Position numbers and translations under genes: made by a program. DNA of 64,000 nt, from positions 1 through 64,000 of the forward strand of contig JAPLNM010000040.1 of assembly GCA_026692845.1 (NCBI GenBank), written 5' to 3'. Under the pieces are notes generated by a model. The model was given only the letters and a program-made list of their open reading frames with translations, was not told the origin of the DNA and did no database searches. Position 1 is the stretch's first letter. Each line of letters begins with the position of its first letter. Shown in pieces: positions 15,337-52,600 of this stretch. The stretch comes from Planctomycetota bacterium. GTDB lineage: Bacteria; Planctomycetota; Planctomycetia; Pirellulales; Pirellulaceae.

Positions 15337-15697
15337 AGTTTTCGTTGCCGCAATGGATCGCAAATACGTAAGGAGTTGATCGATTCGATGGGTTCTGCGG
15401 GTTGAGCCGACCCTGACTGTAGTCCAAAGTCAACAATTTCCCAAGTCTTTTGCTCGGCTAAGGAAAGATTCCAGCCCAACAAGAGATCAAAAATGCCGGA
15501 TTTGATAGCAAATAACCGATTTGCCATCTTGCCTAGCATTCCTGCAAACCCCCGATTTTGTGAAAGGTTTCGAGCCTCGAGGCTGGTAAAGCAGGAAAGC
15601 CCTACGGTTTGGGAGGATTGCAAGTCGATCGCAAGCAGTTGGCTTAGAATTCGCAAACTCGATGAGAATCTTGGATTCGCGAATTAAATACAGGTTT
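15337..15697. promoter_or_regulatory. 361-bp gap upstream of the secretion operon
   Basis: No convincing gene lies here. It is the only long gap upstream of the minus-strand secretion operon and so is the likely place of its promoter, but I cannot point to a clear -35/-10 pair. Confidence 0.35.
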
Positions 15698-31978: not shown

Positions 31979-32695
31979 ATGATCCAGACCCAACGCTACT
32001 GGTTTTTCGCTCTATGCTTCTCGACGGCTTGGTTCTCGAGTGCTACCGATCCGCTCAGGGCCCAGGATTCGGAAAAGCAAAATGTGGTGGTGCGAAACGA
32101 AAACCCAGCCGCACCGGTCCCTTCGGGAGAGGGCTGGAAATCCCTCTTCGATGGAAAAAACCTCGACGGTTGGCAACAGAAAAATGGATGGGCTGTCTAC
32201 CGAATCGACGGCAACTCGATCCACGGCACGACGTCGAAGAACAGCCCAAACTCCTTTCTTTGCACGACCAAGGATTACTCGGATTTCGAACTGCGTTTCG
32301 AGGTCAAGGTCCACAACGCATTGAATTCGGGCGTACAAATCCGATCCAAGAGTTTGCCCGAGCGCGATAACGGTCGGGTCCATGGTCCCCAAGTCGAGAT
32401 CGAAGCCTCGCCAGGAGAATCCGGATACGTCTACGGCGAAGCCACCGGGCGCAATTGGATCTCCCCAACCCAACCGATCCACTCGGTCCTCAAAAACGAC
32501 GATTGGAATCAATACCACATCCGAGCCAAAGGCAAACGCATCCAGACTTGGATCAACGGCAAGTTGATCGAAGACATCACCGACGCTCAATCCCACGACT
32601 CGGGGTTCATCGGACTCCAAGTCCATGGGATCGGAGCCGACCAAGGTCCCTTCGATGTCCGTTGGCGAAATATCGACATTCGCGAACTGCCCTAA
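31979..32695 (+). CDS. Secreted DUF1080 (3-keto-disaccharide hydrolase-like) protein
   Basis: 238 aa. N-terminal signal peptide (YWFFALCFSTAWFSSA), then one concanavalin-like jelly-roll domain: WKSLFDGKNLDGW, DFELRFEVKV, NSGVQIRSK and NDDWNQYHIRAKG are the DUF1080 signature strands. Members act on 3-keto-glycosides or bind sugars in the periplasm. The family is very expanded in planctomycetes. Confidence 0.9.
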   Translation: MIQTQRYWFFALCFSTAWFSSATDPLRAQDSEKQNVVVRNENPAAPVPSGEGWKSLFDGKNLDGWQQKNGWAVYRIDGNSIHGTTSKNSPNSFLCTTKDYSDFELRFEVKVHNALNSGVQIRSKSLPERDNGRVHGPQVEIEASPGESGYVYGEATGRNWISPTQPIHSVLKNDDWNQYHIRAKGKRIQTWINGKLIEDITDAQSHDSGFIGLQVHGIGADQGPFDVRWRNIDIRELP

Positions 32696-36440: not shown

Positions 36441-36794
36441 GCCGCAGGCAATTTCGTTTAACCCGCAGCCAACGGCGAGGAGCTTCACCAAGCCCGCCAG
36501 GATGCAATGTATGGGGTCGAAACGAGTTTTTGTTTCCGTTGGTCGAGGGCACGTCGGCGAGTGGCCGATCGACCGGCAGAACTGCGAGAGCGGGAGCCCA
36601 AGCCGCGGGCGATGGCCATGAGCCCCGCACCGAATCGATCGTGCTACACCGCCGAAATCACTAGCCTGCTCGTGCCCAAACGCCGCGTCCTGGCGGGCTG
36701 AGTTAAACCGCCCAACGGGAAAGCGTTAGGCCCATCGAATCCAAGGCAGAACGAAGCGCCGCCCTGGGTTCGTTTGGCGGTAGGTATCGGGAAG
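36441..36794. repeat. Gene-free gap with diverged, partly inverted copies of the 156-bp repeat
   Basis: Forward fragment AAGCCCGCCAGGATGC near 36489; inverted matches to the 1-335 unit at about 36600-36720, including GGGCGATGGCC, CCCCGCACCGAATCGATCG and GCGTCCTGGCGGGCTGAGTT. The fragments face each other and could pair. This gap borders the unusual block to the right. Confidence 0.75.
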
Positions 36795-38672
36795 TTAGCC
36801 CTGCGATAAGATCAACGCCGAGTATTTTCCAATAGCCAAGTTGCCGTGAAATGGAAGTTGATCACGAGCTCCGAGATGTCCCTCGGTATGATATCCGGGG
36901 TGATTGTCGAATAGAGGTGAGTAGCCTTCCCAATCGCTATTGAAACGTATAAACCAACGCCCGCCACGCGGAAGGCCCAGGGTATATGTTTCGTATGCGC
37001 GATTAGCGAAGTTCAGTAGCACAACTACGTCATCACCGGGCCCCCCGTCATGCCAACGGTGGAACGCAATCACTTTGTCCGAATCATTCACGTGAAAGAC
37101 GTTAAGGTTTTGACCGCGAAGTCCTCTAGTGTTGTTGTACCAGTTTCGCCTTAGTCGAATCAAATCGCGATAAAGCGTTACGATTCCCGCGTAGGTCTTG
37201 AGTTTATTCCAGTCCATGCCTTCCTTGCCGGTGAACTGTCTATATTCGAGCATTTCTTGCCCTTGGAAGAGCATTGGAATTCCGGGAGATGTCATCGTCA
37301 CCACCGCCCCAAGCGTTGAGCGTTTCTGCGCAAACCAGTTGTCTGCGTGACCCGGGTGGATTGCTTCCGGAACTCTTAGGCCGCCCTCTGGACGCCCAAA
37401 TACATCTCCGACTTCATCATGGCTCTCGGTGTAGATGACGCGTTGCCAAGCATTACCAAAGTTATTAGAGATCGCACTCGCAACGCTTCTCATGTCCCGG
37501 TATTCGTCGTTGGGTGTGACGATTGCGGCATTCAATTTGTGAAAGAACTGATCATCCCATTGGCTGTCGAAACCCAGCCCTCCGTGGGCGGTTGTGCGTG
37601 TAACCAACGCGTTCTGTCTCATGTCTTCAGCTACAATCAATTTCCAAGGCTGATCCTGGTCGACTCGATTGTTGATTCGCTGCAGCAAGGTCCACCCACA
37701 ACCACCGAGTTGTGTTGGATCGTCGGGGGGCAAGTTATCCCAGCCGCGTGAATTACGAATGTAGCAAGTCATGTCCAAGCGAAGGCCATCGATCCGAAAC
37801 TCATGCAGCCAATACAATACGTTATCGCAAATGAAGTCGCGCACCTCGGGACGTCCGTAGTCCGGCCTTGTTTCTCCCCAGTCTCCGGTATCGGCACGCC
37901 AGTCGTTGTAGAAATAAATGCCGCCCAATCCGTTCTCAGACCACTCGTCAAACTGCCAAAGCGATTCGTGCAAATTGTCTGGTCCGATATGGTTGTAGAC
38001 GACATCAAGAATCACAGCGATTCCCAAACCGTGCGCGGTGTCGATCAGACGTTTGAGCGCTGATGGGCCTCCATACGCTCGTTCAACAGAAAACAAATGC
38101 TGCGGGTTATAACCCCATGAAAGCTCGCCGTTAAATTCATTGATAGGCATTATTTCAATGGCGTTAACACCCAAATCTCTCAACCTGCTTAAATGATCGC
38201 ACATTTCATCAATGGGGTGTAACGGAGCTCGAGCATCGTGACAATCAGCAAGGTAAGAGCCAAGGTGCAGCTCGTAGATCACCAACTCATCCCATGAGGG
38301 CATGCGGTAGGAATCCGTTTGCCAATCGAATGGCTCAGCGCAAATCAAACTGTTTTCGTGTTCACCAATGCACCCTGATCGTGGATCCGACCTCCAATGA
38401 AGGGGCGATTTTGTATTGTCACCCAAGACATAGCGATACTGATCGCCATTGCTTGCCCCCGCTACTTCCACCGACCAGTACCCATTACCTTCAGAGGCCA
38501 GCGGGTTTGCGAATACATCCCAACGATTGAATGTACCGGCTACGTGAACCTGGCTGGTAAACGGAGCCCAGACCCGAAACGCGACACCGCCGTCAAAAAC
38601 GATTGCTCCCAAGCCAGGGCGACTCGACGTGACGGGCAAGGAATTACGAATCACAGTGGTGCTACTCTTCAT
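36795..38672 (-). CDS. GH13 alpha-amylase-family enzyme with CBM48 (branching-enzyme-like)
   Basis: 625 aa. N-terminal CBM48-type domain (residues 20-105: GVAFRVWAPFTSQVHVAGTFNRW), then the GH13 barrel with its four conserved regions: DVVYNH, IDGLRLDMT with the nucleophile Asp (about 298), VAEDM with the acid/base Glu (about 347) and ESHDEVGD with the stabilising Asp (about 418). The closest layout is a 1,4-alpha-glucan branching enzyme or trehalohydrolase-type enzyme; which one cannot be settled. No signal peptide. Its ATG overlaps the GMC gene stop (ATGA), so it is the last gene of the sigma-kinase operon. Confidence 0.9.
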   Translation of the reverse strand: MKSSTTVIRNSLPVTSSRPGLGAIVFDGGVAFRVWAPFTSQVHVAGTFNRWDVFANPLASEGNGYWSVEVAGASNGDQYRYVLGDNTKSPLHWRSDPRSGCIGEHENSLICAEPFDWQTDSYRMPSWDELVIYELHLGSYLADCHDARAPLHPIDEMCDHLSRLRDLGVNAIEIMPINEFNGELSWGYNPQHLFSVERAYGGPSALKRLIDTAHGLGIAVILDVVYNHIGPDNLHESLWQFDEWSENGLGGIYFYNDWRADTGDWGETRPDYGRPEVRDFICDNVLYWLHEFRIDGLRLDMTCYIRNSRGWDNLPPDDPTQLGGCGWTLLQRINNRVDQDQPWKLIVAEDMRQNALVTRTTAHGGLGFDSQWDDQFFHKLNAAIVTPNDEYRDMRSVASAISNNFGNAWQRVIYTESHDEVGDVFGRPEGGLRVPEAIHPGHADNWFAQKRSTLGAVVTMTSPGIPMLFQGQEMLEYRQFTGKEGMDWNKLKTYAGIVTLYRDLIRLRRNWYNNTRGLRGQNLNVFHVNDSDKVIAFHRWHDGGPGDDVVVLLNFANRAYETYTLGLPRGGRWFIRFNSDWEGYSPLFDNHPGYHTEGHLGARDQLPFHGNLAIGKYSALILSQG

Positions 38673-40918
38673 TTGTTCAAGTCCTTGCGCAGCTGAGCCA
38701 GATGCTTAGCAAGTCGCAAAGCGAGAGCTGCGATCGTCAGTGAGGGATTTGCCGCCGGAATGCTGGGAAATACGGACGCGTCGCAACAGTGAATATTGTC
38801 GTAAGCGAGCAGCGTGAGATTCTCATCAACGACGCCTGTTCCGTTGTCGCTCATTCTCATCGATCCTCCGCTGTGCTGGACACTTCCCTTATCTCCCACG
38901 TGCCATTCATCATCATGCCATTGCGTTGAGAGATCTGCCGAAGGAACTCCCAGCGCGATGAAAATATCGTTTCTTGCTTTTACTATCCGATCCAGGTACG
39001 GTTCCGCGTGCCGGTTCAGCCCCACATGGATCAACGGTTTCTTGCCTTCTCCCTTGGGTTGGATCGAGTTCAGGTCGTCCAAGGGGCTCGCAAAAATAAA
39101 CTTGATGCCGACGGTCGCTTCGTTGGGTCTCACGTTCCTCCACAAATCTGGATCGCGGTAACGAACATCCCAATAGGAACTGTTAATCAAAACCTCGATG
39201 TTAAACGGATTTTCGAGTGGGTTAGCTGGGCGAACCATGATTTTTGCGTGTCCATCGACATTCCCCAGCCATCCCAGCGGGCCGGTCGTTGGAAGTTTGG
39301 GAGTCCATTTGTTGACATAGGCGGCGTGATCGGTGAGTCCGCGTCCCATTTTCGTGTTGGGATCGGACAAGCCACTTTGAATTGCAAGACGCGGGGTTTC
39401 CACAGAACCGCAACACATGACCAGATGGCGGGCCTTGTAAGAGCATGAACGATTCGCGATCAGGTCTTGACAATGAGCTAAAACGAAGTCGCCCGCTGGC
39501 TCGATCTTGGTGGTCAGATGATGAAGGGCTAGGTCCAGGTATTGCTCTCCAGATTGGGTGCTGTAACCCAGAGATTCCAACAGAAGATCGGACGAGGAGA
39601 AGGCACCGCAGGAACGACGCAGAACGTTTTGTAATTTGCCGGTACAATCTAGGTCCGGCTGATGCATCGATCTTGGAAGAATCTCGACTTCGTACGAGTT
39701 TTTAAGATCCGTTCGTAACCATTCAACAACTCGATCTTGGTACGGTCCCATGGAGACCTGCTTTGTCATCAGTTCATTAGCTTCTTTATAGACGCCCCGT
39801 TGCCCTTCGGTACCGAGTAGCGCATCCCTAACTGCATCCGGCCAAGGGCCAGTGCGGAACTCCCAAAGTTGCATTTCTGGAATGATACCGGACCAGTAGT
39901 TGGATCGCCCACCCAAATTAAAAATCAAGCCTCCAACAAATTCACTTTCGTGAGTCCAAAAGCTATCCAATTGATCCCTTGAAACGGGATTGAATTGGCT
40001 GCGAGGGAATTCGTTCATGTGAACCGGGTACCCAAGTCCGCCAGCTTCCAAAACCAGGGTTGCGAGCCCCTGGTCGGATAGGGCATCGGCTAGAGTTCCG
40101 CCTGCTATTCCCGAACCCACCACGATGACATCGTAAACTTTTTGCGCACTGGGGCGGGATCTCGGCGGCACGATCCGTTGTTCCCAAAGCGACTCTTCCG
40201 CGACCAAGTTATCGTAGGCATGAACATAGGCACTCGGCGAAATACCAAAATCGATGTCATCGTCCTTGAGCTTCCTCTCGTTTTCGTCGAGCGAGATGTG
40301 CAGGTTTTTCCCCCGTATCCAATGCTGCCGATCTAAGACAAAACTGACCTCCATTTCGGATTCGCGAAACCGCGAACGGTCCAATTCAAATACCCACTTT
40401 CCTGACCCATCCCTGTTGGTATGAAACCTTCCGAACAGATCTCGATACCAGCCGTCGACCGGAGTGCGCAAAGTAACAAGGTGGTTGGGACGCCATCGAT
40501 CGGTAGAAAATTCGATCTTGTGAGCTAAATATACATCTTCGTCGGTCAGATGAATTTCATTGTCGGTTTTGCGAACTTTTCTGTTTTCGCCCTCCATCCA
40601 AATATTCCCAAGTCGGATCTTGAATTCAAAATCTTTGGCGTAGGCATCGCCAGACAACTCAATCTGCCAAGATCCGTCCTCATGCCAGGTCATTGGAGCA
40701 ATCACTCTCCAATCAAAAATGCTCGTTGTGATCCCAATGGGCAAAGGTGCCGTATACTTCACTGTTTTGAAAACGACTCGAATGAGGTTTCGCGTGTCTT
40801 CCTCAGAAGCGAGCATCGCCTCGGCTTTCGTTGGGACAAAGTTAGCTTCTTTTTGAAAGCCGCTATGATAGAAAGCATCTTCGACTGCACGATTACGGGG
40901 GGGGGGGCTGTGTTTCAT
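38669..40918 (-). CDS. GMC-type FAD oxidoreductase with N-terminal starch-binding-like modules
   Basis: 749 aa. The FAD-binding Rossmann motif VIVVGSGIAGG lies at about residue 262 and VLEAGGLGYP follows; C-terminal GMC motifs are HSGGSMRMS (about 681) and CDASVFPSIPAANPSLTI (about 715). The first 250 residues hold two beta-rich modules (IGITTSIFDWRVIAPMTWHE; FELDRSRFRESEMEVSFVL) that resemble CBM20/CBM25-type starch-binding domains, an unusual fusion. No signal peptide. An 11-base run of C in codons 4-8 makes the frame prone to slippage. The gene begins 16 bases after the kinase stop. Substrate probably a sugar alcohol or glycan end, by inference. Confidence 0.85.
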   Translation of the reverse strand: MKHSPPPRNRAVEDAFYHSGFQKEANFVPTKAEAMLASEEDTRNLIRVVFKTVKYTAPLPIGITTSIFDWRVIAPMTWHEDGSWQIELSGDAYAKDFEFKIRLGNIWMEGENRKVRKTDNEIHLTDEDVYLAHKIEFSTDRWRPNHLVTLRTPVDGWYRDLFGRFHTNRDGSGKWVFELDRSRFRESEMEVSFVLDRQHWIRGKNLHISLDENERKLKDDDIDFGISPSAYVHAYDNLVAEESLWEQRIVPPRSRPSAQKVYDVIVVGSGIAGGTLADALSDQGLATLVLEAGGLGYPVHMNEFPRSQFNPVSRDQLDSFWTHESEFVGGLIFNLGGRSNYWSGIIPEMQLWEFRTGPWPDAVRDALLGTEGQRGVYKEANELMTKQVSMGPYQDRVVEWLRTDLKNSYEVEILPRSMHQPDLDCTGKLQNVLRRSCGAFSSSDLLLESLGYSTQSGEQYLDLALHHLTTKIEPAGDFVLAHCQDLIANRSCSYKARHLVMCCGSVETPRLAIQSGLSDPNTKMGRGLTDHAAYVNKWTPKLPTTGPLGWLGNVDGHAKIMVRPANPLENPFNIEVLINSSYWDVRYRDPDLWRNVRPNEATVGIKFIFASPLDDLNSIQPKGEGKKPLIHVGLNRHAEPYLDRIVKARNDIFIALGVPSADLSTQWHDDEWHVGDKGSVQHSGGSMRMSDNGTGVVDENLTLLAYDNIHCCDASVFPSIPAANPSLTIAALALRLAKHLAQLRKDLNK
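40897..40907. repeat. Homopolymer tract G11 (C11 on coding strand)
   Basis: Eleven G in a row on the plus strand encode the Ser-Pro-Pro-Pro-Arg start of the GMC oxidoreductase. Change by one base would shift the frame of the whole gene and, through ATGA coupling, could also lower translation of the GH13 gene. Confidence 0.95.
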
Positions 40919-40934
40919 CGAGCTTCTTTATTCC

Positions 40935-43900
40935 TCATTGAACAATCTTCGGGGTTGGTAGAGTCCTGCAAATTCGAAACCCGTCGGCGTCGGTCTTGTT
41001 GACTGGAGGGTTCCAGTTCTGTGCATTGAAGCCCAGTTCGTCAGTGCCGTCGATGTACGTCCCGCCGCACAGACGATAGTCTCCCAATTTAAAGGGCTCT
41101 CGAAATTCCGTTGTCACCAGCTTGTCGTGACACCATTCCCACACGTTGCCATGCATGTCGAACAGCCCATGCTCATTCGGTTTGAGCTCACCAACGCTAT
41201 GCGTGCGAAAATTTGCGTTGGCTTGATACCAAGCGTACCCTGCGGCCAGTTGATCATCGCCTCCGAATGACCATTTCGTTCGCGCAGAACCCCGACAGGC
41301 GAACTCCCACTCGGCTGCAGTCGCGAGTCGGAACCCCAAGCGTTCCAACGCATCTTCTGGAACCTTCATCCCCTGGCTGTATTCGCCCAACTCATTTGGT
41401 TCGTAGCACCATTGACTTTGCGGAATACCACATTGCTTGCTTAGCCAGTTGCAGTAAGCAACAGCGTCGTACCAGCTTACCATGTTCACTGGACAATTGA
41501 ATTTCGGTGACTTTCGCTCATCCCATTGATGGGCCTGGCGAAATCGAACAAAGTCCTCGACCGTCACTTCCGTCGTTCCAATCGCAAACGGCCTAGAGAT
41601 CGTCAAACGAATTTCGCGTCCCAGGTCATCAGTTCGGCTGAAGTTGCCAGCAGGAAAACAAACCATGGGAGCTTCGAGTGGACGATGCCGATTCGTTTCG
41701 CTGACGGGGAAATGGGTGAGCAAATCGTTCTCGCCAACGGAATTCCATGCGGACGCCCCAGGGGAGCGAGCCTCAGACGGCTCAGACGCTTTTGAAACAT
41801 CGTTTGTTGGCGTTTCCCATTTTCGCAGCACCCATGAGATCGGGTGACGAACACCCGGTGATCCGTTCGAATGCCAGATCCTCATAAGCCTACGAACAGC
41901 CATTGCACGAGCACCTCGTGAACGTGAGCTACCCGTGTCGCCAATGGTCAAGATGATCCCATGTAATGTGCGGGAGTCTGTGAAGGATCCCAATTGTTCT
42001 ACAAGCGAGTCGAAATTGATCGCGCTTTCGACCAGAAAATCGATGAGCTGCGATTGGAATGTGGGGTCTTGGGTATGTTGAAACGCGGTATCGACAGCAT
42101 CCCAACGACCATAGCTTGCAAGCGCGGCTGCGGCTGCGGCTGCCCTTTTAGCTTGCTCAACAGAACGCTCATCAGGCTTCATGGCAGAATCAAAAAGACG
42201 GATGATCGGCTGGTATCCGTTGGGAGTGGCCTGGGCCAACTCGTTGTACAAACTCGCTGGAATTCTCAGCGTCGTTCCATTCGGACTTTCAACAATCTTC
42301 GCGGCCAGTTGGGAAAGAACAGATGCTGCTACTGGCTGAACAAGCACTGCCCATTGCTTTTGTTCCGCTGGGGGCAGATCAAGCAACAACGTAGCGATGT
42401 CGTCGGCCAAGAGTTGCCAGCTTCCGTCAGTCGGGAGGCGATGTGCCAAGAAGATAGCGATGCGGATTCGTTCTGACGATGGCGTCTCTGAATTTTTCAA
42501 GTCCTGCCATAGCGATTCTAAATTACATTGCGAATTGGGAACATGTCTCATCGCGGCGTTCATCAGTACCAGTTCGTCAAGCGGAGCCTCACGATAGTGT
42601 CCTAAGAGCTTTGGTGAAAGCTGATAGTTCCTGCGTACCAAAGCCATCAGAGCTCGTCGCTGCGATTTCCGATCATTAGTGCTCTCGGCGACGGTCAAGA
42701 TGTTTTTCAGTTGTGGATGAGACCAGCGATGACATGAATCCACTGCTTCCATCAAGTGAGAGACGTCTGTGGAGGCGGAGTTTAGGAACGAATCCACCAG
42801 TTTTTTGGCCCGTACGAACTCCAGATATGGCAACGAAATGAAGGCCAATGCGATCATCAAACCGAGGGCGACGATGCCTCGGCGCAGAAAACGCGTTTGT
42901 GCTTGCCGCATCATCCGTACCTGCGAATTCGTCCACTCCGACATAGTAATCAAAGCGCGAATCTGCAACCACTCAATCAGACGGGGTAGGTGCCTAGTAT
43001 CTTCGTACTTCGACCACATGTCATTTAGGCGTCGCAGCATTTGGCGAGTTCGACCACGCCAGGTGAACGCTTCGGTTCTTGCTAACCATTCCTGCAGCGA
43101 CGGGATCAGATAGTCATGGGCCAGTTGGTAGCGACGAACTTGACCAGGTCCCTCGCTCTCATCGCTTCGAATCGGATCCACAGCGGTGATCAGCTTGGTC
43201 TTTTCGTCTAGAATCTGCAGAAGCTCCTGAAATTCGGCACTCTCGTGTGGCATACCACTTGCAAGGCTGAGTTCCTTTTCCGAACGGCTTCGTCCTTTGA
43301 GTGTTGTCCTTGCCTCGCCTTGAGAGCCCGGGAGAAGCAACCGTAGTACCGCCTGGGCTGCCGTCGCATAAGAACGATGAATCACCGGCGCGGTCGGCAG
43401 CGTGAAAGTCTTTTCGAGGAACCGGACTCCTATGCCTTCTACGCCACCGTAGAGTTCCAGTGTGCGAGGATCCCAAGTTTCATCTTTGAGAATCTCGGCA
43501 ACGAATGCGATTTGAACCGGAGCGACGCGTCCGTTTTGGGAAAGCCCTGCAATCGTAGTTCCCACGAACGCGCGTTGATCTCTACTCAGCGGAGCGGGAT
43601 AGGCTGGCAGCGCACGATAGGCACGGCCAAATCCCTGCAAGACAATTTCGGCGTGTGAAGTTAAGAAAAGATCGATGAATATAGCATTCTCGCCGTCGGC
43701 CAACTGTATTTCAACGCTTCTCATCAGCCGCGATGTTGCCAGCCAAAAGTCGTCACGAACGATCAACAGGGTTTGTAAGGCAACTCCATCACAATGACGC
43801 AGAGCAGAAACGAGTGGATCGGTGGGCGCACTGTCTGAAACACTCAACCACTGTTCCAACTGATCGATGATAACGACGAGCTTTTTTTTCTGTGGACCAA

Positions 43901-45587
43901 TCGTACGGCGAACTCGATCGAACAACTCAGCTAGCGTCAAATCGTCAAACACGGAACGCGACACGATGCCGGGTAAGGTTATGTGCAAAGCATCGCGGAG
44001 TCGTGCCTCGAGATCGTGTTTTGTTGCTTCCACGACAACGACATAAGTCGAAGAATCCAATCGGGGGAGAACACCAGCTTTTACGAAGGATGATTTTCCG
44101 CTGCCGCTCGGCCCATAAATCACACCTATTGGGAACGTTGCATTTGGCTCTCGGCACAGTAGTTTGTCACAAACAAATCTGACGGTTTCAGGTACGCCGT
44201 CGATTCCTCTGAGCCCGGGCATCAGAGCGCAGAACACTTCCGCATCCGACATTTCAAAGCTGCGAACGCCGACTGGGAATAGAGACTGCGAGACTCCATC
44301 GAGTTGATTGGTGTTTTGACATACCGCCTGCGGAATCTTGGCTCTGAGAAATTGACTCAAATCGGCGGAAAGATCTGCCGCTGTTGAATAACGGTCGGTT
44401 ATTCGTTTTTGTAGACACTTCATACAGATTCGTTCGAGTTCCGTAGGAACGGATTCGTCGATCTGACGCAACGGTTTCGGGTCGCGGCTCTCAACTTCGT
44501 CGATCAACTGCGACATTTCGCGACCATGAAATGGACGTTGACCTACCAACAGTTCGTAGAGGATCACCCCTATCGCCCAAATGTCGGTGCGTCCATCGAG
44601 CCGGTGGGTTTCACCACGTAGCTGCTCCGGCGACATATAGGGTCTTGTACCAGCGCGTTGGCCCTTGCTTTGCCATTGCTGGTCGTCACGAATCGCGAGG
44701 CCGAAGTCAACCAAATATGCCCTACCCTCGCGATCAACCAAGATATTCTCTGGTTTCACATCGCGATGCACCAATCCACTTTCATGTGTATGTTGCAACC
44801 CATCAGCAATCTGGCGCAGGATACTGACGAGCGCTTTGCGATCCGAATCATTTTGCTGGGTCCAGTCGCGCAGACTTACACCATCGATCCATTGGCTGGC
44901 AACAAAACACTGCTGTTGCTTCCATTCCCCCCAGTCCACGATTGGAACAATTGTGGGGTGCCGCAACATGGATAGCTTCTTGGCCTCTTCCAAATATCGG
45001 GCAAGCGAGTCTTTCGATAATGGCTTGTCGTGCCGAGGGACCTTGATTGCAACTCGTTTTCCGTTGTCACGATGTTCGGCCAAATAGACATTAGAGAACC
45101 CACCTTGGCCAAGTTGCCGAATAATCAAGTAGTCGCCAACGAATTGCGGAATTTTCTGGGGCGGTGTTTCCCTCGGGGCAACGAAATCATCAAGTAGCTT
45201 GATGGGAATGGACTGGATCGACTCTGCGTAAACGTAATCCCTAGGTGAGTCCTTGCGATTGGCATGTCTCGATTCCCTTGGAACTATTTCCAAAGCATTC
45301 TGGCACAACTGACGCAGCTCTGCCTCCTCGAGAAACCGTCGCATGACGGCGAACCCTGGATCGACTCCCAGAGCCGATACACCACTATCCGAAATCGCAT
45401 CGTGCCGACCATCCTCGCCATTTTTCTTCGAGGTAACCGCCGCCTCAAGTGTCTCGACGCATCTCAAACAGTCGGGGCATTCACACAGGTGCTCGCCGAT
45501 CCATTCGCAACTTGATTGGTCGACTGCTCCCCGATGAAAGTCCTTTAATTGTTGCCATGAAGGGCATGCATGGCGAGTCCTGCCCAT
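40935..45587 (-). CDS. Ser/Thr kinase - STAND-type NTPase - FGE-like multidomain membrane protein
   Basis: 1550 aa. In order: a Cys-rich N-terminus (residues 30-45, CECPDCLRC, zinc-finger/anti-sigma-like); a Hanks-type kinase at about 145-420 (GQGGFSNVY, VAIKVPR, HRDVKPEN, DFG); a P-loop NTPase at about 480-800 with Walker A GPSGSGKSS (about 490) and Walker B KLVVIIDQLEQW; one membrane helix at about 900-922; a helical-repeat linker; and an FGE-sulfatase-like domain at about 1306-1545 (FAIGTTEVTVEDF, MVSWYDAVAYCNWLS, GFRLATAAEWEFACRG, HGNVWEWC). The catalytic Cys pair of true formylglycine enzymes is absent near NWNPPVNKTDADGFR, so the last domain is probably a binding module. ATG 45587 shares its last base with the TAA stop of the sigma gene. 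Likely a signal receptor/switch. Confidence 0.9.
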   Translation of the reverse strand: MGRTRHACPSWQQLKDFHRGAVDQSSCEWIGEHLCECPDCLRCVETLEAAVTSKKNGEDGRHDAISDSGVSALGVDPGFAVMRRFLEEAELRQLCQNALEIVPRESRHANRKDSPRDYVYAESIQSIPIKLLDDFVAPRETPPQKIPQFVGDYLIIRQLGQGGFSNVYLAEHRDNGKRVAIKVPRHDKPLSKDSLARYLEEAKKLSMLRHPTIVPIVDWGEWKQQQCFVASQWIDGVSLRDWTQQNDSDRKALVSILRQIADGLQHTHESGLVHRDVKPENILVDREGRAYLVDFGLAIRDDQQWQSKGQRAGTRPYMSPEQLRGETHRLDGRTDIWAIGVILYELLVGQRPFHGREMSQLIDEVESRDPKPLRQIDESVPTELERICMKCLQKRITDRYSTAADLSADLSQFLRAKIPQAVCQNTNQLDGVSQSLFPVGVRSFEMSDAEVFCALMPGLRGIDGVPETVRFVCDKLLCREPNATFPIGVIYGPSGSGKSSFVKAGVLPRLDSSTYVVVVEATKHDLEARLRDALHITLPGIVSRSVFDDLTLAELFDRVRRTIGPQKKKLVVIIDQLEQWLSVSDSAPTDPLVSALRHCDGVALQTLLIVRDDFWLATSRLMRSVEIQLADGENAIFIDLFLTSHAEIVLQGFGRAYRALPAYPAPLSRDQRAFVGTTIAGLSQNGRVAPVQIAFVAEILKDETWDPRTLELYGGVEGIGVRFLEKTFTLPTAPVIHRSYATAAQAVLRLLLPGSQGEARTTLKGRSRSEKELSLASGMPHESAEFQELLQILDEKTKLITAVDPIRSDESEGPGQVRRYQLAHDYLIPSLQEWLARTEAFTWRGRTRQMLRRLNDMWSKYEDTRHLPRLIEWLQIRALITMSEWTNSQVRMMRQAQTRFLRRGIVALGLMIALAFISLPYLEFVRAKKLVDSFLNSASTDVSHLMEAVDSCHRWSHPQLKNILTVAESTNDRKSQRRALMALVRRNYQLSPKLLGHYREAPLDELVLMNAAMRHVPNSQCNLESLWQDLKNSETPSSERIRIAIFLAHRLPTDGSWQLLADDIATLLLDLPPAEQKQWAVLVQPVAASVLSQLAAKIVESPNGTTLRIPASLYNELAQATPNGYQPIIRLFDSAMKPDERSVEQAKRAAAAAAALASYGRWDAVDTAFQHTQDPTFQSQLIDFLVESAINFDSLVEQLGSFTDSRTLHGIILTIGDTGSSRSRGARAMAVRRLMRIWHSNGSPGVRHPISWVLRKWETPTNDVSKASEPSEARSPGASAWNSVGENDLLTHFPVSETNRHRPLEAPMVCFPAGNFSRTDDLGREIRLTISRPFAIGTTEVTVEDFVRFRQAHQWDERKSPKFNCPVNMVSWYDAVAYCNWLSKQCGIPQSQWCYEPNELGEYSQGMKVPEDALERLGFRLATAAEWEFACRGSARTKWSFGGDDQLAAGYAWYQANANFRTHSVGELKPNEHGLFDMHGNVWEWCHDKLVTTEFREPFKLGDYRLCGGTYIDGTDELGFNAQNWNPPVNKTDADGFRICRTLPTPKIVQ

Positions 45588-46219
45588 TAAATGCTCTCCT
45601 GGGCTTCGGAAAACATATTGCGAAGCTGTCTAAGAACACGTGATTTGATGACGTAAACATGAGCCCGCTCTAAACCGTTCAGGTCAGCAACCTCGGAAGC
45701 TGATTTTTCTTCGACCGCTAGCTGCCAAAAAACCGTCCAGTGGATCGGCTGAATATGCTCCTTTGCGTAGTTCAATACCTGAACAAGGAAGCTTTTTTCC
45801 GTTGCATCATTTCCCAGGCTGGATTCATCAGATTCGGGAAAATCCTTGAGTCGGTCGAGCCATTCGCTGCCGCCGGCTGCTTGGGGTTGTGCGTTGATCT
45901 TGTGCCAATGGTCTCGAATCTTATTTTCAGTGATTGAGCGGATCCAACCACGCAAAGTTCCTCCAGGCGATTTGCGATCAAATCGTTGGAGATTTCTTGA
46001 TACGGCAATAAACACCTCCTGCCCCACGTCGCGGGCCGTTTCGGCGTCCAATCCTCTCATACGGCACCAACTGTATACCAAAGGAGCATGAAATTCCACC
46101 AGAAGTCTCCATGAGTTTTCATCTTGTCTACATGCTCGCTCAAGCAAACTCGTAGCGATCGAGCTCATGGTTTCTTCGATCGGATCACTATTGTCTTCTT
46201 CAATCATTAACGATTCCAT
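45587..46219 (-). CDS. ECF-type RNA polymerase sigma factor
   Basis: 210 aa. Region 2: LLVEFHAPLVYSWCRMRGLD, AETARDVGQEVFIAVSRNL; region 4: HWTVFWQLAVEEKSASEVADLNGLERAHVYVIKSRVLRQLR, a planctomycete ECF sigma with helix-turn-helix. First gene of a four-gene operon with the kinase; sigma factor plus Hanks kinase operons are known in planctomycetes, where the kinase may control the sigma factor. In-frame Met5 and Met18 are possible starts. Confidence 0.9.
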   Translation of the reverse strand: MESLMIEEDNSDPIEETMSSIATSLLERACRQDENSWRLLVEFHAPLVYSWCRMRGLDAETARDVGQEVFIAVSRNLQRFDRKSPGGTLRGWIRSITENKIRDHWHKINAQPQAAGGSEWLDRLKDFPESDESSLGNDATEKSFLVQVLNYAKEHIQPIHWTVFWQLAVEEKSASEVADLNGLERAHVYVIKSRVLRQLRNMFSEAQESI

Positions 46220-46511
46220 CTAACAAGCCAAAGCACTAACCGTTCCGATTTTTCTGTACATGGGGCTCGTTGGCCTCTGTACATGGGGCTCGTTGGCCCG
46301 AGAAATGTAGTCTACCAAACCTACAAGATGGACTCCTCAGCTTTTCAGAAAAAATTCTTTGGTTTTTTGTGACTCAGGGTCGGCTTCGCGATCTTCACGC
46401 TGGCCGCGCTGACCGCCGAGGATGAGCCAAACCTCGACGCCGGAAATTTTTGTTAGACCCCACCGTTAATCCTCGTGTGGTTAGATTTCAAAATTTTTTT
46501 TTGGAGAGAGA
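46220..46511. promoter_or_regulatory. Divergent control region with a 23-bp tandem repeat
   Basis: 292 bp between the sigma-kinase operon (minus) and the protease genes (plus). A perfect 23-bp direct repeat stands at 46253-46275 and 46276-46298, 34 bases before the sigma start; its core is GTACATGGGGCTCG. Two abutting copies of about two helical turns suggest a tandem operator or sigma-binding site, perhaps for self-control. Near the plus-strand gene a T-rich stretch and GGAGAG give its ribosome site. The promoter role is inference. Confidence 0.55.
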
Positions 46512-47720
46512 ATGATGAGCGTCGGTGAAAACGGCTTTGGAGAAAATGCGGAAATGAGTGCTAGTTCCGCGGACGATACTGGCAACTTCGACTTACCACC
46601 GAGTGGACAATCGAGTAGTTCCAACTCTGGCTTCGATTTGCCGCCTGGACAAGGTGGCGGAGTAAGCTATGAAGATGGTGGCAACATCGAATCGAGCGTA
46701 TCGGCACAATTGCTTGAGTGCAAGAAAAAAATTGAACAGAAGCTTGTCGAGGCCGCGTCCTCCAATGCCATGTCGATTGCAAGGATGAGGAATGTTGACA
46801 GCGCTGGTGTTCAGGGTGTCGGAATCTCGTCGTCTTGTGCCTTCCTCGGTGGCGAGGCAAGTCTGATTGTCTACGTCGAAAGCAGCGCGGATGTAGAGCA
46901 AGTCCGCCGTGAGCTTGTTGACGTTATGGGCGTGCGAGCGGCTTCTAGCGATTCGATTCCAGTGGAGGTAGAAGTCACCGGGCCAATCACCGCCTACACG
47001 ACCAATAAATCGAAATTTCGGCCCGCCCCAGGCGGTGCATCGGTCGGCCATTTCCAGATCACGGCTGGCACAATCGGCGGTTGGGCTCGCGGTAGAGGCG
47101 ACGACCGCAGACGCCGTCTGTTGATGCTTTCCAACAATCACGTGTTGGCCAACTCCAACGCAGGTAAGTTCGGTGATTCCATCATACAGCCGGGAAGTGC
47201 TGATGGCGGCCTGAACCCGGCGGATCAAATCGCCATCTTGGAACGGTTTATACCCATCAACTTTGCAGCAGGCTCCACCAACTTTGTCGATTGCGCAACA
47301 GGATGGTGTTGGCCGGATCGGGTTCGTCGCGACCACGTGCATCACAGCGGGAGCGTGACGGCCAAGTTTTTCCGGATCGGAAATGCGCCAATCGAACCAG
47401 TGGCCAATATGCTCGTAGGGAAGACCGGCCGGACGACAGATTTGACTCAGGGAACGGTTCGTGCGACAGGTGTAACGGTAAACATCCGCTTCGGTTCGGC
47501 TGGTGTGGCAACATTCGTTGACCAATTCTCGGTCCGATCCACAACCTCTGGAGCATTCGCCGGACCTGGTGATTCGGGTTCCATCGTTTGGGCAGTCCGT
47601 CAGGGCTTGCCGCCGGTCGGTTTGCTGTTTGCCGGTGGTGGTGGAACTACTTTCTGCAATCGAATCACACGAGTGTATGCCGCACTGCAAATTGACCCTT
47701 TTGAGCTGCCATTGATCTAG
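46512..47720 (+). CDS. Nal1-like trypsin-fold serine protease
   Basis: 402 aa; GGAGAG lies just upstream of ATG 46512 (Met2 also possible). Residues 1-60 are Ser/Gly-rich with two FDLPP motifs. Residues 70-165 form a small domain with GVQGVGI, SLIVYVESS and VEVEVTGPITAY. The protease domain follows: His in LSNNHVLAN (about 208), Asp probably in NFVDCATGW (about 259) and Ser in GPGDSGSIVW (about 355). No signal peptide is seen, so it is probably intracellular. In conflict-system NTPase operons such proteases act as effectors; here it lies head-to-head with a STAND-type NTPase kinase. Confidence 0.88.
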   Translation: MMSVGENGFGENAEMSASSADDTGNFDLPPSGQSSSSNSGFDLPPGQGGGVSYEDGGNIESSVSAQLLECKKKIEQKLVEAASSNAMSIARMRNVDSAGVQGVGISSSCAFLGGEASLIVYVESSADVEQVRRELVDVMGVRAASSDSIPVEVEVTGPITAYTTNKSKFRPAPGGASVGHFQITAGTIGGWARGRGDDRRRRLLMLSNNHVLANSNAGKFGDSIIQPGSADGGLNPADQIAILERFIPINFAAGSTNFVDCATGWCWPDRVRRDHVHHSGSVTAKFFRIGNAPIEPVANMLVGKTGRTTDLTQGTVRATGVTVNIRFGSAGVATFVDQFSVRSTTSGAFAGPGDSGSIVWAVRQGLPPVGLLFAGGGGTTFCNRITRVYAALQIDPFELPLI

Positions 47721-47887
47721 TCAGCGAAACTTGATAACCGCCGGACAGTGCGACCTATCTCCATTGGCCGGGCTCGCGGACAATCGAGCATATTGACCCA
47801 TGGCGCATTTATCCGTAAAGTAAATTGCCGTCGTGGATCTGAAAAAATTAGCCTCGCATCAATACCCCCATGGACCAGGAGAAGCAC

Positions 47888-48151
47888 ATGAGTGAAAACG
47901 CAGCGATGTCCTACGAGCCCTCCGACGACAACCAGTTTTTGATTGGTGGAGTTAAAGGTGCATTTGCAAAAGCTCAATCCCAATTGCTAAGCCAACCAGG
48001 TGTTAAAGGTCTGGGCATGACAAAAACACCCGCTGGGCAAGACGTGATCGTCGTCTATGTAAAAAACGCACTTGTTATCGCAAAATTGCCGTCGAACGTC
48101 GATGGATTCCCTGTGATAGGCGAGGTGACGGGCGATATCGATGCTCTTTGA
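47888..48151 (+). CDS. Small protein matching the protease's N-terminal domain
   Basis: 87 aa from ATG 47888, supported by AGGAG seven bases upstream (ATG 47870 would add six residues). The whole protein parallels residues about 98-165 of the neighbouring protease: VKGLGM with VQGVGI, VIVVYVKN with SLIVYVES, and FPVIGEVTGDIDAL with IPVEVEVTGPITAY. It has no protease domain and no membrane segment. A stand-alone prodomain-like protein next to its protease could be an inhibitor or folding helper. Function inferred only. Confidence 0.8.
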   Translation: MSENAAMSYEPSDDNQFLIGGVKGAFAKAQSQLLSQPGVKGLGMTKTPAGQDVIVVYVKNALVIAKLPSNVDGFPVIGEVTGDIDAL

Positions 48152-48341
48152 GTCAGCAGCAGATCACATCCTGTTGCCAGATTCATTCGCGATGCTCGAT
48201 TACATCATTCCATGCGGGCGAGCGGACTTCTCACTAGCAAGTGCCGTTTTTTACCACGGCAAAACCCCGAGGACAGTTCCCCCGTAAGAGCATGTTCGTA
48301 AATTCTATTAACTCAGTTTTAGGTCTTTAATCGGAATAATC

Positions 48342-49169
48342 ATGGCTAGGAAGAAACCGTCAAGTCGCAGCGCAAGCGAATCATCAGAAAAGCTGATGCG
48401 ATCCTGTGGGACAAAACGACCGTCTCACTATGAGATCATGCGTAACGACCAACGACTCGCCGCTTCCAGTCGGCGTATGCGTGCTACCCAAGGCATTTTT
48501 ATTGATATTCAATTCATACACATAACGTCGGCAAATCGTGGCGTGATTTCCGCAGCCAAGCGGAAGAATCAGGTTGCTGTTCTTAACAAGGCGTTCCAGC
48601 AGTACATGATTGAGTTTGCTTACTCTGAGGATCAAGTGCGTATCGTTGAGAGTGACCGTTGGTACTCTATGGATATTGGAAGTTCCGCTGAGCGCGAGGC
48701 AAAGATGGCATTACACGGTAGTCCGGAACGTCATCTGAATTTCTACACTGCAGGCTTGACGGGTGGGCTTCTTGGCTGGGCGACTTTCCCATGGGACTTA
48801 GCTGGTGATCGAGTAATGGACGGAGTTGTGATGCTAGACGAAACACTTCCGGGTGGTTCGGCATCCCCTTATAACCTTGGTATCACAGCGGTCCATGAAG
48901 TGGGGCATTGGCTTGGTCTTTATCATACATTCCAGGGCGGCTGTAACGCACAGGGTGACCACGTTGGCGATACTGTCGCACATGCCGAACCAAATTTTGG
49001 AACTCCCGATGACACTTTACCCAATGGGTCCTGCCAGGTTGGCCAACTTGCTCCCGTTCACAACTACATGAACTACTGTGACGACCGTTGGCTTAACTCG
49101 TTTACGAGCCAGCAAATTGACCGAGCAAAGAAGCATGTGGCCGAATACCGTGCGGGGTTCATTCGGTGA
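48342..49169 (+). CDS. M43 (pappalysin/cytophagalysin-like) zinc metalloprotease
   Basis: 275 aa. The extended zinc motif HEVGHWLGLYH (about residues 184-194) fits HExxHxxGxxH of metzincins; the Met-turn is in HNYMNYCDDRWLNSFT, typical of M43. Conserved Cys (in GGCNAQGDHVGDT and GSCQVG) also fit M43. The N-terminus is basic and Ser-rich, with no signal peptide, which is unusual because most M43 enzymes are secreted. Third gene of the plus-strand protease set. Confidence 0.88.
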   Translation: MARKKPSSRSASESSEKLMRSCGTKRPSHYEIMRNDQRLAASSRRMRATQGIFIDIQFIHITSANRGVISAAKRKNQVAVLNKAFQQYMIEFAYSEDQVRIVESDRWYSMDIGSSAEREAKMALHGSPERHLNFYTAGLTGGLLGWATFPWDLAGDRVMDGVVMLDETLPGGSASPYNLGITAVHEVGHWLGLYHTFQGGCNAQGDHVGDTVAHAEPNFGTPDDTLPNGSCQVGQLAPVHNYMNYCDDRWLNSFTSQQIDRAKKHVAEYRAGFIR

Positions 49170-50116
49170 GGTTGGCAAAAGATCGTTTCAGACTGAACTA
49201 TAGGGCGATTCAAGCCTTATCAACACGACTTGGGGCGGTTTGAGTTGCAGAAAATCGCATTTTTGAGACGCAAACCTTTTTGTGTCTCACAGATGCAATG
49301 CAAATCATCTTCGCCCCTCCGCAAGACCAATGAGCCCTTGCAACATCAGACAACCCACTGGGGCATCCCCAATTCCACAGCGGAACAGCTGACTCGCAAT
49401 ACCGTCCAATTAACATTTGGACGGTTTCACAGTTATTCTGAGCACGTGGATCCGCACCCACCAGCTTCTTACCTCTTTCTTAAACTTGGCGAACTTAGCG
49501 CCTTTGCGGTAAGTTTGGGATGCTTATTGACAGCCCAACACCGTCAAATCGACATTTTTACGGTCTCCGGGAAATCCGCTTTCGGATGTATTGGTTTTCC
49601 ATCGTAATCCCACTGGATTTTTTCGAGCCAATAAGCCTTTCAGTGTAGAGCCATTGTCCCCAATGGCTCCACCCGCCGCGCAAGCGGCGGCGTCTTATGG
49701 TTTTCGGCTGCTTGTCTAACTGGCCACGATACCTTCAGGTTCCGATCGATTTGGGGACAATCGATCCACCAAAAAGCCTCGGTTCCTGATCTGAAGAACA
49801 TAAATATTCGCCGATTGGAGTCGCAGCAGGGTAAGCGTACAGCGGCCAAGTCGGTCTTTTGGGGCCGAGGGGCTAGCAAATTGAGCTAAGAAGAGTCACT
49901 CGCCATGGCCGTCCGGGGCACCTGATCCCGGAGGGATGGAGGCAATTAGCCGGTGGTAAGCGCAGCGCCACCACCGGAGACGTTCGTGGCCCAGCGGGCC
50001 AGAATGTTGGTATCAAGCGATTCCCCACAGACTCGCACCGTCCCCGAAGGACGCTCTGACCGTAGGACTCTAGGAGCCCACGGCTATTGCCCTGCGAACA
50101 TGCCCCTTTCGCTTTG

Positions 50117-50277
50117 CTATTTGCCCTGGCGTAGCTCCGCACGCACCCGCCGCCGTGCAGCTTGCACAACAGCCGTATCGGCCTTATCGCGTCGCGCTTG
50201 CTCGCAGTACCACGCATCGCCTTTCGGATGCGCTGCGGTCCAACGATCCGATAGGCGGTTGTATGCGTACGCATCCA
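50117..50277 (-). pseudogene. Possible C-terminal coding remnant
   Basis: A frame of about 53 codons reads as normal protein (AYNRLSDRWTAAHP, then EQARRDKADTAVVQAARRR) and ends at a stop, but its upstream end runs into the 32-bp palindromic array without a start. It may be the end of a gene cut by the repeat expansion. No family recognised. Confidence 0.3.
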
Positions 50278-50283
50278 GTATTG

Positions 50284-50468
50284 TACGACGGACTTCCAGT
50301 CCGTCGTACCCATTGATCGATGGACTGGAAGTCCGTCGTACCCATTGATCGACGGACTGGAAGTCCGTCGTACCCATTGATCGACGGACTGGAAGTCCGT
50401 CGTACCCATTGATCGATGGACTGGAAGTCCGTCGTACCCATTGATCGACGGACTGGAAGTCCGTCGTA
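50284..50468. repeat. Array of six palindromes with 32-bp period
   Basis: Five 32-bp units plus a leading 25-bp half unit. Each unit has a hairpin GACGGACT-3 nt-AGTCCGTC and a constant linker CCCATTGATC. The first palindrome is in the opposite orientation (TTCC against GGAA centre). Linkers are identical rather than variable, so it is not a CRISPR array. Period is not a multiple of three alone, so the translated repeats are accidental. Confidence 0.9.
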
Positions 50469-50639
50469 CAGTTAACGATACAACAGCCGTACGCTCACCC
50501 CAATTTCTCAGCGGAACGGCGCAAGCCGTCCGGTGACGACACATCGGGAAATCGCAAGCATGCGGCAACCCACCGTGCGCTTACTTTGGCGCGTCTGGTT
50601 TACTGGGAGTCGCGTGGTTGGCTCGGCGACTACCGATCG

Positions 50640-50800
50640 AGGGTTTGAACGTTTCGCCAAGCGACGGTTCCCGTCAAATCGATTCTTCGCTTGATTAAGT
50701 CCGTTGATACGATCAGGCTGGTCATCTGTGTCGCGAATGAGAACAACTGCATCGACATCATCAAACAGATTTCGAATAACACTTGGAAAGAAACCGGGGA
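50640..50800 (-). pseudogene. Possible gene fragment
   Basis: A minus-strand stretch reads VIRNLFDDVDAVVLIRDTDD then QPDRINGLNQAKNRF, which looks like coding sequence with a nucleotide-binding or toprim-like Asp motif, but it has no start and is flanked by repeats. Identity unknown. Confidence 0.25.
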
Positions 50801-51020
50801 CAGTCCCCAGGTCAATTAGGCGTGGTTGGGTTCCGATCGAGGTGCTTGATTGGGGCGGTGCCGGGTACTGGCCATGCCCGCGGCTTGCGCCTAGGCGGCT
50901 CACGGGGACGCCTGCGGCGTTTGATGGATTAGGGTGCGCGTTGGTTTTGAGTAGGAAAGAAGGTGGTCTCATCTCCGGTACGTGCGGGCTCGGAGGCCCA
51001 CACTACGCGAGGAAGGAACA

Positions 51021-51092
51021 GACGCGAGCAGACGCGAGCAGACGGATCGGACGGATCGGACGGATCGGACGGATCGGACGGATCGGACGGAT
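51021..51092. repeat. Short tandem repeats (10 bp twice, then 9 bp)
   Basis: Two copies of GACGCGAGCA (51021-51040) are followed by at least five copies of GACGGATCG to 51092. They lie upstream of the sugar-phosphate transferase start and would encode Asp-Gly-Ser if read in frame. Confidence 0.85.
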
Positions 51093-51214
51093 TCTGCGGG
51101 TTGCGCCGGTGGGCCGAAAGAGATGGAAATCCCCTTGGGGATTACCCGATACTCAAACGGAACGGATTCCCCCAGGTTGTTCCTTGGAACGAACCAACCA
51201 CTCACGAAACCAAG

Positions 51215-52600
51215 ATGATTTCGCCGACAACTAGTCCAATCCGGTCCGCCTTTCCAGCGATTCAGATCGCTTTGGATTTTTTGATCATCGGCCTGTGTTA
51301 TGTCGCGTTTGTCGCCTGGCAGTCCCCTTTGACGGCTATCCCTCCTCTCCAGACCGCTTTTTTGGCGGCGCTGGGGTTCGTCATCGCGGGAGAGTTTCTA
51401 GGGGTGTTCCATACCGGACATCACCGCCCGGCCGATTACGACATTCTGTTGATTAGCGGATCCTGGCTTCTAGGGTTTGTCCTCGCCGTTTTTGGGGGGC
51501 TGATGCTCAGTCCCCTCAGAGAGCCGCTGAGCAACAACAATCTGGTCCTATGGTTCCTCGTCTCGCTTTTGTTTGTTTTGCTTTCCCATATGCTCTCGCG
51601 GGCGCTGTTCGCTTGGATGAGCGAGCGAGGGTGGACCTCTCGCCGCTGTGCGATCCTCGGAAACAATGAACTTGGACGGCATCTTGCCGACGCGGTGGCT
51701 TTCGATCGCGATCTAGGAATCCGCGTCGAAGGCATCTTCGATGAGAACGCCCGGAGGCATGAGCGGGGACTTCATGAGGGGGGATTTGAGGACTTGCTTG
51801 TGGCGATCGGTCAAAGAAAAATCGATACGGTTTTCATCGCCGTACCGATGAGCATGGACGAAAAGATTCGAGCCTGGATCGATCGTCTTGCCGACACGAC
51901 CGCTTCGGTTTACCTAGTCCCGAATCTCGACGCGTTTGATTATCTCTATTCGCGTTGGGGATTTGTCGGCGGCCACACGGTGGTGAGCATTTTTGAAACG
52001 CCCATCTATGGGGTCGACGGGTGCCTAAAACGCGCTCTGGATATCGCCTTGAGTATTTTTGGCCTACTGCTTTCTGCACCGATTCTTTTGATGGCCGCCT
52101 TGGCGATCAAGCTCACGACCATCGGACCGGTCCTCTTTCTTCAGCGCCGCTATGGGCTCGATGGCAAAGAGATCTCGGTTTGGAAGTTCCGAACCATGAC
52201 GACGATGGACGACGGTTCGGACGTCAAGCAAGCCACGAAGAACGACCCGAGGGTAACGCCGATTGGCCGATTGCTTCGTCGGACCTCCTTGGACGAGTTG
52301 CCCCAATTGTTCAACGTTTTGATGGGAACGATGTCACTCGTTGGCCCTCGACCTTATGCCGTGGCCCACAACGAGCAGTTCCGAAATTTGATCCGAGGCT
52401 ACATGCTCAGGCACAAGGTTAAGCCGGGAATCACCGGCTTGGCCCAGGTCCTTGGAAGCCGACTCGAGACCGATACGGTCGAGAAAATGCGAGCCCGCAT
52501 CGAATTGGACCATCGCTATATTCGCGATTGGTCCCTCTGGCTGGACCTGAAAATCATGGTCAAAACGATCGCTGTCGTTCTTCGACAGCAAGCCCACTGA
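51215..52600 (+). CDS. Polyprenyl glycosylphosphotransferase (WcaJ/undecaprenyl-phosphate sugar-1-phosphate transferase)
   Basis: 461 aa from ATG 51215; the frame runs open to 50963 across repeats and is cut. N-terminal membrane segments (about four, residues 15-130), a CoA-binding-like Rossmann domain (CAILGNNELGRHLADAV), then a re-entrant helix and the bacterial sugar transferase domain: WKFRTMTT, RLLRRTSLDELPQLFNVL, GTMSLVGPRPYAVAHNE and KPGITGLAQVLGSR. It moves a sugar-1-phosphate onto undecaprenyl phosphate to start a glycan repeat. Wzm/Wzt at 17515-19718 could export such a product, although the two loci are far apart. Confidence 0.92.
   Translation: MISPTTSPIRSAFPAIQIALDFLIIGLCYVAFVAWQSPLTAIPPLQTAFLAALGFVIAGEFLGVFHTGHHRPADYDILLISGSWLLGFVLAVFGGLMLSPLREPLSNNNLVLWFLVSLLFVLLSHMLSRALFAWMSERGWTSRRCAILGNNELGRHLADAVAFDRDLGIRVEGIFDENARRHERGLHEGGFEDLLVAIGQRKIDTVFIAVPMSMDEKIRAWIDRLADTTASVYLVPNLDAFDYLYSRWGFVGGHTVVSIFETPIYGVDGCLKRALDIALSIFGLLLSAPILLMAALAIKLTTIGPVLFLQRRYGLDGKEISVWKFRTMTTMDDGSDVKQATKNDPRVTPIGRLLRRTSLDELPQLFNVLMGTMSLVGPRPYAVAHNEQFRNLIRGYMLRHKVKPGITGLAQVLGSRLETDTVEKMRARIELDHRYIRDWSLWLDLKIMVKTIAVVLRQQAH

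Follow-up and report, generated by a model that had tools for sequence, protein, structure and literature searches.

The subject here is a group of genes in a 64,000-nucleotide stretch of a Planctomycetota bacterium genome (JAPLNM010000040.1 positions 1-64,000; this whole stretch is called the window, and all unlabelled coordinates refer to it). At its centre is a 1550-amino acid (aa) kinase/nSTAND1/FGE-type protein, named KSF in this report, whose gene (40935..45587, minus strand) adjoins that of a flavin oxidoreductase of the GMC family (38669..40918, minus strand), with a GH13 enzyme gene (36795..38672, minus strand) beyond it. KSF and GMC, in many cases with GH13, constitute a conserved core: KSF adjoins the long form of the GMC protein in all nine genomes found with that form, and with 9 of 9 genomes showing it, this adjacency is more than chance. 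The recurrence of KSF with a putative sugar oxidase suggests a sensor controlling carbohydrate oxidation. Our best reading, for which the balance of belief and doubt is about level, is that KSF is a receptor-kinase/STAND switch that would act through the GMC and GH13 enzymes.

A preliminary description of this region had listed seven genes and the distances between some of them, and both were recovered from open reading frame (ORF) calls: a 4-base overlap of the GH13 and GMC genes, a 16-base gap between GMC and KSF, and a 1-base overlap between KSF and the gene for an extracytoplasmic function (ECF) sigma factor, with genes for a Nal1-like serine protease, a small protein, and an M43 metalloprotease on the opposite strand. 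The kinase, NTPase, and FGE-like architecture proposed there for KSF is borne out by Pfam matches to Pkinase (1.4e-49), nSTAND1 (1.2e-17), and FGE-sulfatase (3.2e-35); the nSTAND1 match, at 65.1 bits with a cut-off of 27.1, identifies the P-loop segment as a STAND-type NTPase. The 749-aa GMC protein matches GMC_oxred_C (1.2e-14), and the 625-aa GH13 protein, with a CBM48, a catalytic, and a C-terminal domain, matches Alpha-amylase (1.5e-21) and CBM_48 (5e-12).

A scan of genome contigs with three GMC proteins gave 20 loci, which were split into a long and a shorter form. The long form, which carries two beta domains at its N terminus, came entirely from Planctomycetota records, and the shorter from cyanobacteria, Nocardia, proteobacteria, planctomycetes, and others. 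The nine genomes with the KSF-GMC module are those of the window, its sister G019 (L106), G196, Roseiconus nitratireducens (L107), L108, L109, L110, L111, and G873; G196 came from a genome search and not from the 20-locus scan. G873 was found after the module had been defined, when 266 genomes of the order were searched, and 43 bases separate the end of its KSF gene from the GMC stop codon: here a prediction of the module came true. KSF is co-directional with, divergent from, or convergent to GMC in different members while their adjacency is constant, so that the adjacency has outlived rearrangement. A GH13 gene lies beside the pair in six of the nine (the window, G019, G196, L107, L109, and L110), encoding a protein 56-59% identical to that of the window (95% in G019). 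The preliminary description had taken the starch-type and oxidase enzymes for an odd addition to the kinase; they are instead its conserved partners. No Pfam family was shared among 20 neighbour proteins of six module loci. The long GMC form is sparse: two genomes carry it in each of three samples, of 392, 396, and 266 genomes (own genome included where drawn).

Co-inheritance of the module genes is seen in their trees. One branch divides the nine module GMC proteins from 13 others (22 rows; support 100/100), another the eight module KSFs from 19 relatives (27 rows; 100/100), and a third the six module GH13 proteins from 14 others (20 rows; 99/97). The KSF relatives were not sampled at random but taken as the best matches to a profile of the module itself, and the program flagged the long branches of the window, G019, and G196 KSFs. 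When the KSF of G873 and the KSF-type protein of G782 (see below) were added, a 99/98 branch parted the 19 relatives and G782 from all nine module KSFs. In DNA-level scans, which were used to count neighbour matches at module, Nal1-like, and relative loci, no GMC, GH13, sigma, Nal1-like, small-protein, or M43 match was found near the 19 relatives (20 fetched loci). Inclusion of the short or distant GMC loci in the system was considered and rejected: among 18, a KSF-type protein is near the GMC gene in G782 alone, and that protein falls outside the module branch. The shorter form, with one N-terminal beta domain, is represented by L112-L125, from cyanobacteria, Nocardia, Polyangia, Nitrospirales, and others.

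KSF is laid out as a Ser/Thr kinase (residues ~150-403), an nSTAND1 region (matched at 486-619), a hydrophobic segment (904-920), a repeat region (~920-1290), and an FGE-type domain (1308-1540). The kinase motifs VAxK, HRD, and DFG are retained in eight of eight module KSFs, as are the P-loop GPSG[SC]GKSS and an [IL]DQ[LF]EQW motif with the acidic character of a Walker B. The hydrophobic segment follows the STAND region in all eight; because it is single, with basic residues on its N side, we infer a single-pass membrane receptor, with kinase and STAND domains in the cytosol and the repeat region and FGE/C-lectin-type domain outside. In catalytic FGE proteins the active-site cysteine pair presumably follows a GGS/GGT motif. 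No such pair was present in the FGE-type domain of any of the eight KSFs, which sets them apart from catalytic FGE enzymes (those of the window and G019 have a single Cys at the pair position, FRIC), and for this reason a binding role seems more likely than catalysis. An H-x3-C-x2-C motif is found at the N terminus of three of the eight (window, G019, and G196); the zf-HC2 Pfam score there is 14.7 bits, below the 22.2 cut-off.

A profile of the C-terminal half of KSF has matches in 159 of 396 genomes of the class of G196 (E 1e-40), and KSF by this measure belongs to a large planctomycete family. STAND-kinase-FGE proteins are thus abundant in planctomycetes, and the module branch has a definite, recurring enzyme partner, offering a concrete test of receptor function. 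One family locus (L205, G549, 1823-15461) has a tandem array of three genes, all on the same strand, for KSF-type proteins 1461-1538 aa long.

The long GMC protein is composed of two N-terminal beta domains (~45-125 and ~131-218), which are duplicates of each other (hhalign 99.6%), and a pyranose-oxidase-like core. Its AlphaFold model (mean pLDDT 74.2) has bacterial and fungal pyranose 2-oxidases and C-glycoside oxidases as its best Foldseek matches, the closest being the bacterial pyranose 2-oxidase 7qva (E 4.4e-21), with <20% identity to the best match over the fold alignment. It has the features of pyranose and glycoside oxidases (GMC fold, GxGxxG FAD motif, and catalytic His/Asn), and all 19 aligned sequences share H682 and N724. 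From motif and spacing, we read these two as the counterparts of H440/N484, which PsG3Ox needs for catalysis (PMC10646112). PsG3Ox, DaCGO1, and pyranose 2-oxidase resemble it in core fold, FAD-binding motif, and the His/Asn pair, but the module protein differs from pyranose 2-oxidase and glycoside 3-oxidase in its two extra N-terminal beta domains and in adjoining a STAND kinase gene. On this modelled likeness, it probably oxidises a sugar or glycoside. An assignment of the N-terminal domains to CBM48 was tried and is unsupported (hhalign probability 2.5 and 4.5%).

In the GH13 protein D300, E349, and D419, which we take to be the three catalytic acids, are conserved in 20 of 20 aligned sequences. 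Domain order and these acids are as in GlgB and TreZ, but the scores are far below both NCBIfam cut-offs (259 bits for a GlgB cut-off of 741, and 256 for a TreZ cut-off of 538.8), so that it is neither equivalog; by sequence it appears to fall between the two. The suggestion that it is the ordinary enzyme of the genus was rejected, as 14 close homologues elsewhere (G019 apart) lie outside the module branch; near these 14 there was no GMC, STAND, FGE, sigma, or protease match, and two had kinase-only matches.

With these parts, the switch might work as follows. Binding of a ligand by the outside FGE domain would change the NTP state and oligomerisation of the STAND domain; this change would switch the KSF kinase on, with the STAND domain setting the threshold; and the kinase would then control a cytosolic GMC/GH13 pair, by phosphorylation, recruitment, or direct contact. 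GMC would convert its sugar or glycoside to a keto-sugar with a reduced acceptor or H2O2, and GH13 could remodel or open an alpha-glucan that supplies or receives that sugar. In the window lineage, the ECF sigma factor, perhaps held by the zinc-finger-like N terminus of KSF, may add a transcriptional output, while the Nal1-like protease and its free N-terminal domain would ride along. If the link holds, STAND-type switching extends to carbohydrate oxidation, an output not found in searches of the open-access literature; nor did these searches list any description of a STAND kinase with GMC and GH13, which is no proof of novelty.

Several observations weigh against this reading. GH13 is missing beside the module in three of nine genomes (L108, L111, and G873) and so is not indispensable, although the L108 contig ends 1.35 kb after GMC, which limits the absence there. 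KSF-type proteins, in those 159 of 396 class genomes, mostly occur without GMC or GH13, and KSF function need not be carbohydrate-related. The hydrophobic segment is weak in two KSFs (1.40 and 1.71). The N-terminal domains of GMC show no link to starch-binding CBM48, leaving alpha-glucan binding a guess. Finally, in L240 (G782, 2611-10784) a GMC protein of the shorter clade and a KSF-type protein from outside the module clade are ~2 kb apart; a loose GMC-KSF neighbourhood can thus arise otherwise, and G782 may be an independent pairing.

The same enzymes could also belong to ordinary regulated carbohydrate use, as an accessory catabolic locus for external or stored glucan in which KSF is a nutrient sensor and no switch-like STAND event is needed. 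A GlgB/TreZ-like GH13 with a CBM48 and a sugar-oxidase-like GMC are what such a locus might contain, and a gene for a 3-keto-disaccharide hydrolase (PF06439, 4.6e-45) is found in the same region at 31979-32692. This gene is, however, in the left flank, outside a block of DNA that the window shares with its sister genome (described below), and the block has no transporter or secreted hydrolase. GH13 is dispensable here too, and the N terminus of GMC is not signal-like in a crude hydropathy scan (best 12-residue stretch in the first ~46 residues, 0.63; 1.09 for the small protein, 1.77 for GH13, -0.27 for the Nal1-like protease, and -0.61 for the M43 protein). We regard ordinary carbohydrate use as unlikely, though with some weight.

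The recent history of the locus is recorded in that block (36741..48147, no strand), which has 94% nucleotide identity to G019, where the left flank has 80-84%. Synonymous divergence (dS, by Nei-Gojobori, window and G019) is 0.146 for GH13, 0.112 for GMC, 0.100 for KSF codons 1-1430, 0.100 for sigma, 0.203 for the Nal1-like gene, and 0.229 for the small-protein gene, breaking from six left-flank genes at 0.489-0.801. Rightward of the small-protein gene, the G019 sequence lacks the M43 gene and realigns with the window at 50786-51044 alone. Because block dS is low relative to that of the flank and the alignment ends past the small-protein gene, the six genes from GH13 to the small domain gene were exchanged recently as one unit, or acquired by both lineages from the same donor. 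GC content is 0.520-0.524 at 36-48 kb, compared with 0.546-0.594 in the first 32 kb; it is also low at 56-64 kb (0.519-0.535). Nine of nine fetched genus relatives have the left-flank genes without the block, but just three of these have at least 17 kb of downstream sequence, and in one (G008) the sequence 5-8 kb downstream of these genes contains a kinase-type match; no clean empty site was found among the nine, in which the right flank did not follow the left-flank genes.

The island of the preliminary description therefore stands for six genes in the window lineage, by their 94% identity and low dS with G019, and fails for M43. A broader claim, that the whole span from GH13 to M43 (sigma, KSF, GMC, GH13, Nal1-like protease, small protein, and M43) is one conserved system, draws on these six of seven genes common to the window and G019 in one block. 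It is largely refuted, and we consider it very improbable: genes matching sigma, Nal1-like protease, small protein, and M43 are absent from seven of seven module loci outside the window and G019; M43 is absent in G019 itself; and in 20 other Nal1-like loci, fetched from the matches listed, no GMC, GH13, sigma, STAND, or repeat-region match was found (0 of 20). A general partnership of the protease set with the kinase operon, as had been supposed, is accordingly not supported; outside the window, the two were found as neighbours in the sister G019 alone.

The sigma gene (45587..46219, minus strand; Sigma70_r2, 4.5e-10) adjoins KSF in the window and G019 alone among the module genomes, and is a lineage-specific, local addition. 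It resembles the kinase- or anti-sigma-regulated ECF sigmas (PMC8103513) in that the ECF gene overlaps a kinase gene with an N-terminal H-x3-C-x2-C, but differs from them in its presence in just 2 of 9 module genomes and in a KSF motif below the zf-HC2 cut-off. Between it and the divergent Nal1-like gene is a perfect 23-bp tandem duplication (46253..46298, no strand), a possible control site. In G196, too, an ECF sigma gene lies past GMC, at a distance of ~0.5 kb; it belongs to a different Pfam type and has other neighbours.

The 402-aa Nal1-like protease (46512..47720, plus strand) has a Nal1_C Pfam match below cut-off (20.8 bits, with 26.1 required). The 32 best Foldseek matches of its model are all rice NAL1 (E 3.9e-12), although mean pLDDT is only 62.7; the modelled protein is like rice NAL1 in overall fold and conserved H, D, and S positions, and differs in sequence (15-18% identity in structural alignment), bacterial origin, and the free N-domain gene adjoining it. 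H210, D260, and S355, presumably the catalytic triad, are invariant in 13 of 13 sequences. Homologues occur in 28 of 392 genomes of the phylum (E 1e-6). Of the other Nal1-like loci, one (L090) has an FGE-domain match and four (L054, L088, L093, and L104) a kinase-only match.

The small protein (93 aa; 47870..48151, plus strand) had been described as a free copy of the N-terminal domain of the protease, and this holds through homologues: in L095, L096, L097, and L101 its match is the segment that directly precedes the protease domain, and L087 has a small gene of its own next to the Nal1-like one, as does L094 on a weak match (E 1e-3). No homologues were found in plasmids. As relatives of the small protein adjoin or lie inside Nal1-like genes elsewhere, without module genes, protease and small protein form a pair of their own, co-transferred but outside the conserved core. 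The M43 gene (48342..49169, plus strand; Peptidase_M43, 8.9e-14) is probably not part of the unit. To its right, at 50286-50469, is a repetitive extragenic palindromic (REP)-like array of 32-bp palindromic repeats (5.8 copies).

The presence of a protease in the exchanged block bears on a further possibility, conflict or defence, in which the FGE domain would sense an external or phage-linked trigger, the STAND/kinase part would fire, the oxidase would make toxic H2O2 or keto-sugars from the cell's own carbohydrate, and the protease would be a further effector. Among proposed conflict systems are ones that bring together nSTAND1, a C-terminal FGE-type (CLec) domain, and a trypsin-like peptidase (PMC10907252, PMC8195603); KSF combines kinase, STAND, and FGE domains, has a serine protease nearby in the window lineage, and belongs with a GMC of patchy spread. 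A sigma factor beside such systems is not unheard of, since PMC8195603 describes ECF sigma genes adjoining EACC2/caspase systems; neither oxidoreductase nor sigma is mentioned in the available part of PMC7159879. The differences from the described systems are a putatively membrane-anchored KSF with an active-looking kinase, GMC and GH13 as partners, no targeting of KSF by a diversity-generating retroelement (DGR), no shared adaptor by BLAST (queries with the Nal1-like N-domain and the small protein found no match to the KSF of the sister genome at E 1e-3), and a protease not conserved with KSF. A recurrent adjoining protease was not found; the two stand together in the window and G019 alone. 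No PADLOC match was found among 10 flanking window proteins, and those of KSF itself are kinase-domain matches; GMC, as query, had no phage match, no confirmed viral-contig match, and only distant core matches on two plasmid records. The defence role suggested in the preliminary description has no direct support here, and we consider it rather improbable; that account of the locus as a whole is partly supported. It is also conceivable, though we find it quite doubtful, that this is a conflict system with a metabolic effector: a membrane receptor made of kinase and STAND parts, with a C-lectin-type sensor on the outside, would respond to attack by unleashing a sugar oxidase in the cytosol, to which an alpha-glucan enzyme supplies substrate, and the H2O2 or keto-sugars made from the cell's own carbohydrate would poison or starve it, with ECF sigma and Nal1-like protease as further arms in the window lineage.

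DGR diversification of KSF was suspected from its last 120 codons (window 40935-41297), which differ from G019 with a dS of 0.36 and a nonsynonymous divergence (dN) of 0.116, the rest having 0.10 and 0.026. It was rejected: synonymous changes are in excess too, there is no A bias (substitutions involving A have a share of 0.528 within the diverged segment and the same share beyond it), and the matches to window 40935-41400 in the rest of the genome are pieces of at most 58 bases, none of repeat length. Recombination with a diverged allele is more likely. For the FGE domain, positive selection is likewise unsupported (dN/dS ~0.3).

A DGR is present on another contig of the same genome (G000:C99:60667-66966, L233). 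It comprises a reverse transcriptase (PF00078, 65959-66492), genes for two FGE-domain proteins of 891 and 578 aa, and a template repeat of 134 bp (66833-66966), with mismatches falling on template A in 17 of 18, 13 of 14, and 12 of 15 cases across its three variable repeats; the same contig has a further FGE gene at 49262-51346.

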